Source: Spirochaetota bacterium
GTDB lineage: Bacteria; Spirochaetota; Brachyspiria; Brachyspirales; JACRPF01
Length of the DNA stretch: 64,000 nucleotides
NCBI GenBank assembly: GCA_016214035.1
Contig: JACRPF010000013.1
Location: forward strand, 62,001 to 126,000
Reading direction: 5' to 3'
Part shown: positions 18,009 to 25,310 of the stretch, in pieces
Layout: every line of letters starts with the position of its first letter
Numbering within the stretch: position 1 is the first letter of the stretch
Notes under the pieces: generated by a model
Database searches by the model: none
Told to the model about the DNA's origin: nothing
The model's input: only the letters and a program-made list of their open reading frames with translations
Position numbers and translations under genes: made by a program

Positions 18009-18086
18009 TAGGTACGTTGTGCATGGTCAGCCAAACGGTTGTGCTCGGTATTTCAGCCGCACGAACGGGAACGAGGTGGTTCTTAT

Positions 18087-21000
18087 ATGCAAAGGCGTAT
18101 TCTTGCACTGAGCGCGGTGTTTGCCATCGCCCTATGTCCAATTCCAGGTCAGGTGCTGTCTACGCAGTCAAATGTGCTTCGCGTCGCCGCCGGCAATAAT
18201 TATCCGCCGCACGAGTTCACCGAGAACGGAAAACCGGCGGGATTCGATATCGATATCATACGCGCGGCCGCAGCAGAGATGGGCTATACGATACAGGTGA
18301 CGAACGGGCCATATGGTGAAATGGTCAAGGGCGTCATTGACGGCACCTATGACGTGCTCGCGGGCAGTTCGATAGTGCCGCATATGACCAATATCGCCGT
18401 CTTCTCGATACCCACCTGCGAGGTTTCCTTCGCGCTTTTCGTGAGGAAAAACGCATCCGTTCGTTCTCACGCCGATCTCTCAAACAGGAGCATCGTCATT
18501 CAGCACGGCAGCGCCATGGGTGAGCTGTTCCGCCAATCGATGCCGGGCTCCCGGTTTGTCAGCGTTCCCGACGATCTCGACAGTCTGCTCCTGGTGAACG
18601 ACGGCCAGTACGACGGCGCATTCCTTCCGAAACTGCAGGGGTTGTACTACATCAACCGGTATTCATTGCGGGACGTACGTCCGCTTTTCACGGCCGTGTA
18701 CGTACGCCCGTACGGATTTCTTGCCGCAAAAAGTAACGCCGCTGCCGTGCAGCTGCTCAACAACGGCCTCTCCATCATCAAGGGGAACGGAAAATATAGG
18801 GAGATCGTCAAGCGATGGTTCACGGCATACGAACGGCCGGTGTCCCGCGAACTCGTTACGGCTGTCATCGCGGGTATTGTCGTGCTGGTTATGCTGCTCC
18901 TGTTCGCGGCACTGTTCATCATCGTGCTGCGGCGGCAGGTGACCCGCGCCGTGCGGGATCTTGCCGAGCGCGAACAGAATCTCGCGACAACGCTTCACTC
19001 CATCGGAGATGCGGTCATCGTCGCGGATGCCGGCGGCAGCGTAACGAGGATGAATCCGGTGGCCGAACACCTTACCGGCTGGAAGGTAACGGAAGCCCGC
19101 GGCAGACCGCTCATCGAAATATTCCGTATCGTCAACGCCCACTCGCGCAAACCCGTTGCGGATCCGGTGGCACGGGTGGTGGCGACCGGCAATGTGGTGG
19201 GGCTCGCCAATCACACCGTGCTTATTGCCCGCGACGGCGTTGAGCGGCAGATCGCCGACAGCGGCGCACCGATACGCGATGCCGCCGGGAGCATTGTGGG
19301 TGTCGTGTTGGTGTTCCGCGACGTGACCGACGATTATGCCATGCTCGAACGGATAGCCGCGAGCGAGGAGCGCATGTCGTCGCTCTTCACGAATATGAGC
19401 GAAGGTGTGGCGCTGCACGATGTGATCCTTGATGACGCCGGAAAACCGGTCGAATACCGCATCGTCGATATCAATCCGCGATATGAAGCGATCCTCGGCG
19501 TGAAACGAGCGGACATCGTCGGCAAACTGAGTCGCGAAGCATACGGCACGCCTGCGCCGCCGTATCTCGAGGAGTTCACCGGTGTCGGCATTACGGGTAT
19601 TCCGTACCGGTTTGAGACCTATTTCCCGCCCATGGATAAGCATTTTTCGATCTCGGTTGCCCCGTGGGGAAAGAACGGATTCGCCACAATTTTTTCAGAT
19701 ATCTCCGAGCGTAAAAAGCAGGAAACGCTTCTGCGCGAGAAAGCGGAGGAACTCGACCGTTTCTTCACCACCAATCTCGACCTGCTCTGCATCGCCGATA
19801 CGGACGGTAATTTTCACCGCATCAATCCTGAGTGGGAAAAGGCGCTCGGATACACTATCGAGGAGCTCATGGGAAAGAAATTTCTTGAGCTCGTGCATCC
19901 CGACGATATGGAGGCGACGCTTGCCGCCGTTGCCAATCTCGCCGAACAGAAAACGGTAACCGATTTTGTCAACCGCTACCGCCGCAAGGACGGATCATAC
20001 CGGTACATTGAATGGCGGTCGTATCCATCGGGAAAATTCATCCATGCCGCCGCACGGGACATCACGGAGCGGCTGGCAGCGGAAGATGCGCTCAGGGTGA
20101 GCGAGGAACGCAATCGCTCGTTTCTCAAGGCGATACCCGATCTGATTTTCGTGATTGACAGGGATGGTGTGTTTCTCGACTACAATGCGGAACGTCAGGA
20201 CGATCTTTACACACGTCCCGAATACTTTCTCGGCAAACGCGTGCAGGATATACTTCCCCCCGACGTATCGTCCGGCCTCATGACGACAGCCGCGCAGGTC
20301 GGGCGCACCGGCATCATGGGTGTATATGAATATGAACTCGCCATGCCCACCGGCTCTGTGCGCAGTTTCGAGGCGCGTCTCACACCGTACGGACCCGGCC
20401 GCATTGCGGCACTCGTACGCGACATAACGGTACAGAAGAACGAGGAGGCGGAACGCAAACGGCGCGAGGAACGTTTCATGCAGACCGAAAAGCTCCTGTC
20501 GCTCGGGGAACTGACGGCCGGACTTGCGCATGAGATCAACCAGCCGCTCACGGCGATATCGCTCGGGCTGGCAAATACCATGCTCCTCGCATCGTCTGAG
20601 TGCATGGACAGCGTAAAGATTCGCGAAAAACTGTCGCGCCTGACCGATCACGTCAAGCGCATCACCACGCTGATGGATCATATCAGAACGTTTTCGCGCG
20701 ATCAGAAATCGGATGACGCCGACGTGTTCGACGTAGCCGCCGCTGTTGTCGGTGCCCTCGGTCTTGTCCGCGTGCAGTATGAAAACGACCTCATCACATT
20801 TTCCGTTTCACATGAGCAGAGCGGGCTCTTCGTGCGGGGGAACCGCTACCGGCTTGAACAGGTGATCCTCAATCTGCTCACCAATGCCAGGGATTCTCTT
20901 ACGGAAAAGAAACAGCGCGGCGTGCAGTTCAGAAAAACGATCGACATTCGGGTATTTTCGGATCGTCCCGCCGCGGCGTCGATAGCGGTACGTGACAATG

Positions 21001-21200
21001 GTGTTGGCATTGCGCCGGCAGTGCTCCACCGGATTTTCGAACCGTTCTTCACCACCAAGCCTGTCGGTAAAGGCACGGGACTCGGGCTTTCGGTAAGTTT
21101 CGGCATCATGCGGGATATGAACGGCACGATAGAAGCTGAGAGTACTGAAGGAGAGTACGCGGAGTTCATCCTGCGTCTTCCGACAGTGAAAGGAACATGA
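18087..21200 (+). CDS. Sensor histidine kinase with solute-binding and PAS domains
   Basis: 1037 residues. Signal peptide (1-25), family-3 solute-binding domain (about 28-250, LRVAAGNNYPPHEF), one membrane helix (about 255-282), then about four PAS domains (290-790, e.g. MNPVAEHLTGWK). The HisKA domain has the phospho-acceptor H815 in GLAHEINQPLTA, and the ATPase domain has NLLTNARDSL, DNGVGIA and GKGTGLGLS. It presumably binds an amino acid or other small solute in the periplasm and phosphorylates the receiver encoded two bases downstream. Start 18087 begins the signal peptide after GAGGTGG; the GTG at 18039 is upstream of that site. Confidence 0.92.
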   Translation: MQRRILALSAVFAIALCPIPGQVLSTQSNVLRVAAGNNYPPHEFTENGKPAGFDIDIIRAAAAEMGYTIQVTNGPYGEMVKGVIDGTYDVLAGSSIVPHMTNIAVFSIPTCEVSFALFVRKNASVRSHADLSNRSIVIQHGSAMGELFRQSMPGSRFVSVPDDLDSLLLVNDGQYDGAFLPKLQGLYYINRYSLRDVRPLFTAVYVRPYGFLAAKSNAAAVQLLNNGLSIIKGNGKYREIVKRWFTAYERPVSRELVTAVIAGIVVLVMLLLFAALFIIVLRRQVTRAVRDLAEREQNLATTLHSIGDAVIVADAGGSVTRMNPVAEHLTGWKVTEARGRPLIEIFRIVNAHSRKPVADPVARVVATGNVVGLANHTVLIARDGVERQIADSGAPIRDAAGSIVGVVLVFRDVTDDYAMLERIAASEERMSSLFTNMSEGVALHDVILDDAGKPVEYRIVDINPRYEAILGVKRADIVGKLSREAYGTPAPPYLEEFTGVGITGIPYRFETYFPPMDKHFSISVAPWGKNGFATIFSDISERKKQETLLREKAEELDRFFTTNLDLLCIADTDGNFHRINPEWEKALGYTIEELMGKKFLELVHPDDMEATLAAVANLAEQKTVTDFVNRYRRKDGSYRYIEWRSYPSGKFIHAAARDITERLAAEDALRVSEERNRSFLKAIPDLIFVIDRDGVFLDYNAERQDDLYTRPEYFLGKRVQDILPPDVSSGLMTTAAQVGRTGIMGVYEYELAMPTGSVRSFEARLTPYGPGRIAALVRDITVQKNEEAERKRREERFMQTEKLLSLGELTAGLAHEINQPLTAISLGLANTMLLASSECMDSVKIREKLSRLTDHVKRITTLMDHIRTFSRDQKSDDADVFDVAAAVVGALGLVRVQYENDLITFSVSHEQSGLFVRGNRYRLEQVILNLLTNARDSLTEKKQRGVQFRKTIDIRVFSDRPAAASIAVRDNGVGIAPAVLHRIFEPFFTTKPVGKGTGLGLSVSFGIMRDMNGTIEAESTEGEYAEFILRLPTVKGT

Positions 21201-21201
21201 G

Positions 21202-21576
21202 ATGAAACCGCTGTCCATCATGGTACTTGATGACAATGACGATGTCCGCGATGAGATCGTCGAATTCCTGTCGCTTAGCGGATTTTCCGCGCAGGGAATA
21301 CGCTGCGTATCGGATGCGCTTGCCGTAATCGGCAAAACCCCGCCGGATATTCTCATCCTCGACCTTCGCATGCCCGATATGGACGGCATGCAGGTGCTCG
21401 GAAAACTCAGGTCGATGGGCTCGACGGTCGATGTGATCATGGCGAGCGGATATGTCGATCAGGAAATGGAAGCGGCCGCGAAAGCGCTCGGCGCGTCCGC
21501 GGTGCTGCATAAACCGCTTGCCGTAGAGACTCTGATAGCGGCGATCGAGGCAACCGCGAGCTATAAGCGGGGATGA
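21202..21576 (+). CDS. Single-domain response regulator (CheY-like)
   Basis: A 124-residue receiver with no output domain: acidic pair D10-D11, phospho-acceptor D54 (LILDLRMPD), and a Lys in VLHKPLA. It starts two bases after the stop of the kinase gene, so it is the likely phosphate acceptor. Without a DNA-binding or enzymatic domain, the output must be a protein partner or a phosphorelay. No further relay protein is visible next to it. Confidence 0.92.
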   Translation: MKPLSIMVLDDNDDVRDEIVEFLSLSGFSAQGIRCVSDALAVIGKTPPDILILDLRMPDMDGMQVLGKLRSMGSTVDVIMASGYVDQEMEAAAKALGASAVLHKPLAVETLIAAIEATASYKRG

Positions 21577-23949: not shown

Positions 23950-23977
23950 TTGCGGGTTTTCCGCGCTGTGATATAAT
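23950..23977 (+). promoter_or_regulatory. Near-leaderless promoter of the receiver-LpxC gene
   Basis: TTGCGG (23950-23955) and TATAAT (23972-23977) with a 16-bp spacer. The predicted start at 23984 leaves only four bases before ATG 23988 and no ribosome site. Confidence 0.65.
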
Positions 23978-23987
23978 CATCGCACCT

Positions 23988-25310
23988 ATGGCGCGTAAAA
24001 CAAAAAAAACAAAAGGCTCCGTCCTTATCATCGATGATCAGAAGCATATTCTCACATCGCTGCGTACGCTGTTCGAATCGGAAGGCTACAATGTCTACAC
24101 CGCCGATGACGGCGACAAAGGGCTTTTGTGCATAGAGAATCTGTCGCCCGACATCGTGCTGCTTGACGTCTGGCTTCCGCAGATAGACGGGCTTGCGCTG
24201 CTTGAGAAGATCGTCGCGAAGAACAGTGCAATACCGGTCATTATGATGAGCGGCCATGCGGGAATCGAGACCGCGGTACGCGCGACAAAAATGGGCGCGG
24301 TTGATTTTCTTGAAAAACCATTCACGCTTGATAATGTGCTCCGCCTTGTTGAAAAACATGTGCATAAGGCAGTATCGCCTTCACTGAAGAACACCCCGGA
24401 ATCGCGTGTGAAAAGGGTCGTTACGTCATCCGCGCCGTATCAGCGGAGCGCCAAGGGTCTCATCCGGCAGGCGACGATTGAAAAAAGCGTTGTGTTCAAC
24501 GGTTTCGGACTCATGAGCGGACGGCATCTTGGCATGCAGCTGCTCCCGGCACCCCCGGGAAGCGGCATACGGTTCATCGACATCGCCAGCAATACCGATA
24601 TTCCGCTGCATCCGGATTATCTTTCCGGCAAGAGCGGAGACCGGACACTGGTCAATTCGACAGCACTCGTATCCGGCAAGGCACGCGCGCGCACCATCGA
24701 GCACCTGCTTGCGGCCCTGCATATGTTTCGCATCACCAACATAACGGTGAAAATAGACGAGGAGATACCCAACGTCGACGGCTCGGCGATAGATTTCTGC
24801 CGGCTTATACGCGAGGCCGGCGTGTCGCAGCAGCGGGAGAAAACGGGCGAGCTGGTCATAGCGAAACGAATGGCGTTCGGGGAGATAAAGAACAGCAAGG
24901 CATACATGGTGATTACGCCGTATAACGGGTTTGCGATAGACCTTCGCATCGATTTTCCGAAGCCCATCGGCGTTCAGCGCTATTCATTCAAATTCACCTC
25001 GCCGCGGTCGTTCGAACGCGACGTAGCGCCGGCGCGTTCGTTCAACACTATCGAAAACATTGACAACGCGCAGAAAAACGGGAGCGTCGGCAGCGGTATG
25101 ATTGGAAGCCACATCATCATCTCGCGCGGCAAAGTGATCAATACCGAACTGCGGTTTCCCAATGAGTTCGTCCGGCATAAGATACTTGACATCATCGGTG
25201 ATCTCTATCTGCTCGGCAGACCCATCCGCGGCAGGATAAAAGCGAACCGGACATCACATAATTTCAATCATCTTGTGGTGAAGGAACTGGCAAAGGTTTT
25301 CGGGCTGTAG
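23988..25310 (+). CDS. lpxC: Receiver domain-LpxC fusion (UDP-3-O-acyl-GlcNAc deacetylase)
   Basis: 440 residues. Residues 10-125 are a complete receiver: D16-D17, phospho-acceptor D60, S88 and K110. Residues from about 160 to 440 are LpxC, the committed Zn2+ deacetylase of lipid A synthesis. The catalytic set is intact: E238-H239 (TIEHLLAAL), H397-K398 and D401 (FVRHKILD), and H424 near the C-terminus. The linker is about 35 residues. The fusion implies that phosphorylation could control lipid A synthesis directly. No kinase gene is adjacent. Transcribed from a near-leaderless promoter after recA. Confidence 0.92.
   Translation: MARKTKKTKGSVLIIDDQKHILTSLRTLFESEGYNVYTADDGDKGLLCIENLSPDIVLLDVWLPQIDGLALLEKIVAKNSAIPVIMMSGHAGIETAVRATKMGAVDFLEKPFTLDNVLRLVEKHVHKAVSPSLKNTPESRVKRVVTSSAPYQRSAKGLIRQATIEKSVVFNGFGLMSGRHLGMQLLPAPPGSGIRFIDIASNTDIPLHPDYLSGKSGDRTLVNSTALVSGKARARTIEHLLAALHMFRITNITVKIDEEIPNVDGSAIDFCRLIREAGVSQQREKTGELVIAKRMAFGEIKNSKAYMVITPYNGFAIDLRIDFPKPIGVQRYSFKFTSPRSFERDVAPARSFNTIENIDNAQKNGSVGSGMIGSHIIISRGKVINTELRFPNEFVRHKILDIIGDLYLLGRPIRGRIKANRTSHNFNHLVVKELAKVFGL

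Follow-up and report, generated by a model that had tools for sequence, protein, structure and literature searches.

An NtrX-type phospho-receiver fused to the only LpxC of a Brachyspirales genome: a candidate two-component switch on lipid A synthesis

We analysed a window of 64,000 nucleotides from the genome of a Spirochaetota bacterium of the Brachyspirales (contig JACRPF010000013.1), in which one gene encodes a response-regulator receiver joined to the lipid A enzyme LpxC. The gene is preceded by recA and is convergent with hisG. A TATAAT hexamer ahead of it can be made out by eye at 23972-23977, but a promoter scan gave none above its threshold. Farther upstream, 18039-21576 encodes a sensor kinase, whose sensor domain is of the solute-binding-protein type and which also has several PAS domains, and directly after it a single receiver. 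A methyltransferase at 21637-22620 matches the PRMT oligomerisation domain (PF22528, E 1.6e-11) and resembles protein arginine methyltransferases, which are unusual in bacteria. The fusion gene and its parts are:

23988-25310, + strand: REC-LpxC fusion gene, 440 aa from ATG, the sole LpxC of the genome
24021..24350, + strand: NtrX-type phospho-receiver domain, residues 12-121 (PF00072, 106.7 bits, E 9e-31)
24165..24167, + strand: D60, predicted phosphorylation site, which with D16, D17, S88 and K110 completes the receiver active site (D/D/D/[ST]/K in 67/67 distinct fused proteins)
24363..24461, + strand: inter-domain linker, residues 126-158 (about 35), disordered, not conserved in sequence, narrowly conserved in length
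24468..25292, + strand: LpxC deacetylase domain, residues 161-435 (PF03331, 240.6 bits, E 3e-71)
24513..24515, + strand: M176 at the H19 position (Met in 30/30 Brachyspirales, His in 20/20 other fused and 81/81 solo LpxCs)
24699..24704, + strand: E238-H239, equivalent to E. coli E78-H79, catalytic base and zinc ligand, invariant
25038..25049, + strand: S351...T354 at the T191...F194 positions (LpxC alignment)
25176..25202, + strand: H397, K398, D401 and D405, equivalent to E. coli H238, K239, D242 and D246, zinc-binding and active-site residues kept unchanged in every fused protein
25257..25259, + strand: H424, equivalent to E. coli H265, followed by 16 residues and no long C-terminal tail

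Both Pfam matches are near full profile length. The LpxC domain passes the NCBIfam equivalog model for lpxC (TIGR00325, 195.9 bits against a cut-off of 187.25). Over the receiver, the best-scoring response-regulator model is that of NtrX (NF051870), which matches at 110 bits in its receiver part only and does not reach the cut-off of 600 bits set for the full-length receiver-AAA+-HTH protein. Judged from these scores, the protein is derived from NtrX but is not a member of that family. In an AlphaFold2 model, both domains fold with high confidence (mean pLDDT 86, pTM 0.69), and a Foldseek search with this model retrieves solved LpxC structures from Pseudomonas aeruginosa, E. coli and Aquifex (E 2e-30). 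Linker residues 128-155 have pLDDT values below 50; a disordered linker together with a pTM of 0.69 means that the model contains no defined contact between the domains.

The first-pass annotation of this locus had described a complete receiver on the basis of D60 and K110. This is correct, and the remaining active-site residues D16, D17 and S88 are present as well. All five are unchanged in every aligned Brachyspirales protein, and the wider set of 67 fused proteins, comprising 30 from Brachyspirales, 17 from Acidobacteriota and 20 further fusions, covers four phyla. The distance from K110 to T163, which spans the linker, varies only between 46 and 53 residues across 30 Brachyspirales. Pairwise comparison within Brachyspira gives median dN/dS values of 0.075 (receiver), 0.050 (LpxC domain) and about 1.07 (linker, where the value is noisy because the segment is short). 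By this measure, both the receiver and the LpxC domain are under selection, which is strongly purifying on the receiver.

The LpxC domain had been called 'CATALYTICALLY intact', which is correct as regards its zinc ligands and the pair E78/H265 but not for three other positions. Ligands H79, H238 and D242 and catalytic residues E78 and H265 of LpxC are all matched, by H239, H397, D401, E238 and H424, respectively; these five residues, K398 and D405 are found in 38/38 aligned rows. T191, F194 and H19 (the latter numbered after the aligned P. aeruginosa sequence) are replaced by Ser351, Thr354 and Met176. The changes at T191 and H19 occur in 30/30 Brachyspirales and in none of 101 other LpxCs compared, and the F194 position holds Thr in the 30 Brachyspirales (Ser in one) and Phe in nearly all of the 101 others. 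T191 is counted among the residues critical for catalysis (2026 review, PMC13333357), and F194 lines the hexose pocket of LpxC (PMC10254716). Going by the alignment, the three substitutions are a class-wide remodelling of the active-site pocket in Brachyspirales. We treat the T191 and F194 changes as pocket tuning rather than as a family-defining loss; the hydroxyl is retained with serine. Deacetylase activity is likely, because this protein is the sole LpxC of its genome, and the substrate preference or inhibitor response of the Brachyspirales enzymes may differ from the standard.

The genome (5.2 Mb, 98.2% complete) encodes exactly one LpxC. LpxA and LpxB are encoded side by side, and WaaA and an LpxD-like protein are also present, which makes the fused protein the only candidate for the committed step of the pathway. 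Across the class, dominated in our sample by the genus Brachyspira, 31/31 genomes contain exactly one LpxC; in 30 of them it is fused, in a frame of 427-458 aa, and in the last it is cut by a contig end. Among the outcomes that the first-pass annotation had named as refuting were an assembly artefact and a separate standalone lpxC. Neither outcome occurred: a fusion that is fixed across the class and has homologues in three other phyla is not an assembly artefact, and a search for a standalone lpxC found none, either here or elsewhere among the 31 genomes. Not anticipated there were the link to NtrX/NtrY, the spread over four phyla and the pocket substitutions. Lipid A genes and a lipooligosaccharide have been published for Brachyspira hyodysenteriae (PMC2650404), with no mention of the fusion in the searched text of that article. 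Separately, spirochaetes of family f31 encode a second, very divergent LpxC-like protein, which scores 40-68 bits and keeps several zinc-site residues (L145:3150-4157, L146:2775-4031, L147:3118-4239).

A survey of proteins combining a receiver with LpxC gave a wider taxonomic spread than had been guessed: fused LpxCs were found in Spirochaetota, Nitrospinota, Thermodesulfobacteriota and Acidobacteriota. In a further class of spirochaetes, 4/4 genomes have the fusion. In Nitrospinota, LpxC is fused in 15/15 genomes with a full-length LpxC domain, in frames of 718-730 aa (nine), 432-525 aa (five) or cut by a contig end (one). The Thermodesulfobacteriota relatives likewise have a fused LpxC, and in the sampled class of Acidobacteriota the two-domain form was confirmed in 18/81 genomes. 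The long form places an AAA+ domain of the sigma-54 activator type, and in some proteins an HTH domain, between the receiver and LpxC. The NtrX model matches the first 420 residues of this form at 240 bits; no GAFTGA loop could be recognised by eye in its AAA+ domain. Nine non-spirochaete genomes with a fused LpxC have no other LpxC in them. At least three sampled Acidobacteriota genomes carry both a solo and a receiver-fused LpxC (G481, G469 and G433; L239, L240 and L241), where paralogues or bin contamination are possible, and the fused protein need thus not be the essential enzyme outside Brachyspirales. Apparent tblastn fusions in Halobacteriovorax (L080) and Helicobacter (L082, L083) were discarded, since on reading the receiver and LpxC proved to be separate genes.

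In a tree of LpxC domains, the fused proteins form one clade of 25 rows (SH-aLRT 100) against 84 solo sequences, and after addition of Acidobacteriota and Nitrospinota the fused clade comprises 49 rows (SH-aLRT 99). A supposedly solo LpxC inside this clade (L259) was rejected as such: its receiver is encoded in a frame that overlaps and is interrupted by an ambiguous base. A receiver-domain tree unites the fused receivers with an NtrX receiver from Neisseria (85/75) and separates them from other Brachyspirales receivers; monophyly of the fused receivers is not rejected in an AU test (p 0.16). Because both LpxC trees were made by a quick method and the retrieved solo sequences were biased in favour of the query's relatives, we read the trees as consistent with a single fusion origin of all fused LpxCs, not as proof. 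In the sampled Acidobacteriota class, an unfused lpxC-ntrY-ntrX cluster (L257:2-5645) may represent the arrangement before fusion. One record among our sequences, titled as a N. gonorrhoeae plasmid (NZ_CP119140.1, L213), has the size of a chromosome (2.17 Mb) and looks mislabelled.

The neighbourhood of the homologous fusions points to a kinase partner. In Nitrospinota and relatives, a gene for an NtrY-type kinase (NtrY_N, HAMP, PAS, HisKA and HATPase domains) usually lies directly upstream of the fusion. Five two-domain REC-LpxC genes of Nitrospinota (L219-L223), which have exactly the layout of the window protein, begin within or beside the end of the NtrY gene, the open reading frames often overlapping; the longer NtrX-LpxC genes occupy the same NtrY-adjacent position. 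Overall, a gene with the NtrY H-box is found at 14/43 fused loci versus 1/104 solo loci, some of the latter having only 1.5 kb of flank and hence a lower chance of showing it; the one solo case is the L257 cluster.

Brachyspirales genomes also encode an NtrY-like kinase, in a frame of about 590-720 aa in 30/31 genomes and as a partial frame in the last, although it is not adjacent to the fusion. Eight of these kinases were read over their whole length. Each has the NtrY H-box HEIKNPL[TM]PI, they group with NtrY and not with PAS kinases (90/89), and among the neighbours checked no intact response regulator was found, unrelated genes lying there instead. LptFG, suspected beside the NtrY gene from gene lengths, was ruled out by Pfam. 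The other conserved kinase of the class (about 400 aa, PAS) adjoins its own NtrC-type regulator. With kinase and fused regulator apart in Brachyspirales, their pairing is drawn from homology and from both being unpaired: an NtrY lacking a regulator and an NtrX-type receiver carried on LpxC would be natural partners. In Brachyspiraceae, but not in the family to which the window genome belongs, a receiver-like protein of about 120 aa is encoded convergently beside the NtrY-like kinase (L167:6093-6449, L170:7133-7501, L173:6180-6527, L176:2173-2541 and L177:6208-6606). Asn replaces its phospho-Asp, and it was therefore rejected as the regulator of the adjoining NtrY; it is possibly a modulator of the kinase.

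We consider it probable that these components form a switch running from NtrY through the NtrX-type receiver to LpxC, with the enzyme in place of the transcriptional output and D60 as the predicted phosphorylation site. A membrane-bound kinase of the NtrY type, here most likely the one encoded at G000:C18, about 299.6-301.4 kb, would sense the state of the envelope and phosphorylate D60. The receiver would then self-associate or dock on or off the LpxC domain through the flexible linker of fixed length, and deacetylation of UDP-3-O-acyl-GlcNAc would be raised or lowered, the sign of the effect being possible either way. Flux into lipid A would thereby be altered without a step of transcription or proteolysis. 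What the analysis shows is the architecture with its conservation and single copy, domain trees that both agree with one origin, NtrY-adjacent homologues of the same layout, and the selection on the receiver. We infer the NtrY-like kinase as partner, the phosphorylation of D60, the physical mechanism, and activity rather than amount or place as the target. Lacking any DNA-binding part, the two-domain form is unlikely to act on transcription, which leaves LpxC as its sole output. A linker that is flexible and limited in length suggests a receiver that associates with itself or docks on LpxC, not one that works as a rigid lever. The invariant phosphorylation site, the purifying selection on the receiver and the NtrY genes upstream of homologous two-domain fusions together favour a working phospho-switch.

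Phosphorylation could instead set the amount of LpxC, with the receiver serving as a conditional degron or adaptor-binding module and the proteolytic logic moved from the C to the N terminus. In E. coli, the amount of LpxC is set by proteolysis (FtsH, LapB, YejM) through a C-terminal degron (PMC12444477). Fused LpxCs lack the long tail of solo LpxCs, the region that FtsH degradation requires in E. coli, a median of 15-16 residues following the H265 equivalent compared with 43 in solo enzymes, and the window protein, with 16 residues past H424, has no E. coli-type degron tail. The short tail where E. coli carries its degron keeps amount control through the receiver as a rival, which the flexible linker of fixed length would suit equally well. 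We nevertheless judge it unlikely: an adaptor or degron sequence was not identified, and receivers fused to enzymes, such as that of CheB, usually act on activity.

It is rather improbable that the receiver serves solely for docking or dimerisation, for example by holding LpxC at a membrane kinase, with phosphorylation irrelevant. Such a role would agree with the disordered linker and with the partner-driven membrane placement of LpxC reported in Neisseria meningitidis (PMC12444477), yet it does not account for five phosphorylation-site residues that are invariant (Ser/Thr at one position) in 67 proteins from four phyla. The Asn-bearing receiver-like protein of Brachyspiraceae, which lost its Asp beside a kinase, further indicates that unused sites decay in these lineages. 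We give as little credence to a phosphate source other than an NtrY-type signal, be it acetyl phosphate, a CheA- or NtrB-like kinase or the window sensor kinase at 18039-21200. The genome holds many kinases, at least 34 matching the NtrY query, so that other donors are possible, and the window kinase lies 2.8 kb upstream of the fusion. That kinase, however, is an unlikely partner: its H-box is not of the NtrY type, and the gene immediately after it (21202-21576) encodes a receiver of its own. The conserved PAS kinase already has its NtrC-type regulator, and homologous fusions adjoin NtrY.

As for its origin, an NtrX-type regulator would have been joined to LpxC and would later have lost the NtrX AAA+ ATPase and DNA-binding parts. 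We lean, by a modest degree, towards the broader proposal that the fusions form a transcription-bypassing two-component gate on the committed step of lipid A synthesis in at least four phyla, having arisen from a linked lpxC-ntrY-ntrX cluster by way of an NtrX-LpxC fusion. The extant series of lpxC-ntrY-ntrX, NtrX-LpxC and REC-LpxC illustrates how a transcription regulator can become a post-translational enzyme switch. Lipopolysaccharide synthesis is controlled mainly at LpxC, which is also a drug target, and very little is known of LpxC control outside Proteobacteria (2025 review, PMC12444477). For Brachyspirales, Nitrospinota and part of Acidobacteriota, a candidate answer is that the enzyme itself would be the kinase output, whereby an envelope-sensing kinase could switch lipid A synthesis directly.

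We compared the window protein with known systems. It shares with LpxC (TIGR00325/PF03331) the fold, the zinc ligands, the catalytic Glu and His and the single copy amid lipid A genes, but differs in its N-terminal receiver, its short tail and, as in other Brachyspirales, the changed T191, F194 and H19 positions. With NtrX/NtrY it has in common the type of receiver, the NtrY gene beside homologous fusions and relatives that keep AAA+ and HTH domains before LpxC; unlike NtrX, it lacks both the AAA+ and the DNA-binding domain. Enzymatic outputs are known among response regulators, CheB being an example in which a receiver is directly coupled to an enzyme, as here; LpxC, or any lipid A enzyme, as the output was not found described. 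A full-text literature search of open-licence papers returned no published description of a receiver-fused LpxC, in agreement with the earlier statement that no characterised example was known, though domain databases may list the architecture; two recent reviews of LpxC control (including PMC12444477) do not mention it. In Rhodobacter sphaeroides, NtrYX acts on the lpxC transcript level, apparently indirectly, and loss of NtrYX raises both lpxC transcript and LPS (PMC7240162). By analogy, these data would fit a restraining role, though at a different level of control. The FtsH/LapB/YejM system of E. coli has the same enzyme as its control point, whereas in the window protein the candidate regulatory module is a receiver at the N terminus, and the C-terminal tail is short. 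Finally, the LpxC-FabZ fusion (PRK13188) known in Bacteroidetes, Chlorobi and Verrucomicrobia (PMC3087551) is also an LpxC fusion, but its partner is FabZ, a C-terminal, non-signalling domain from fatty acid synthesis. Pfam finds no hotdog domain in the window protein, which scores 167.9 against the PRK13188 cut-off of 465. An LpxC-FabZ of the Verrucomicrobia type is encoded in a record titled as a Klebsiella pneumoniae MAG (L124), which looks mislabelled.
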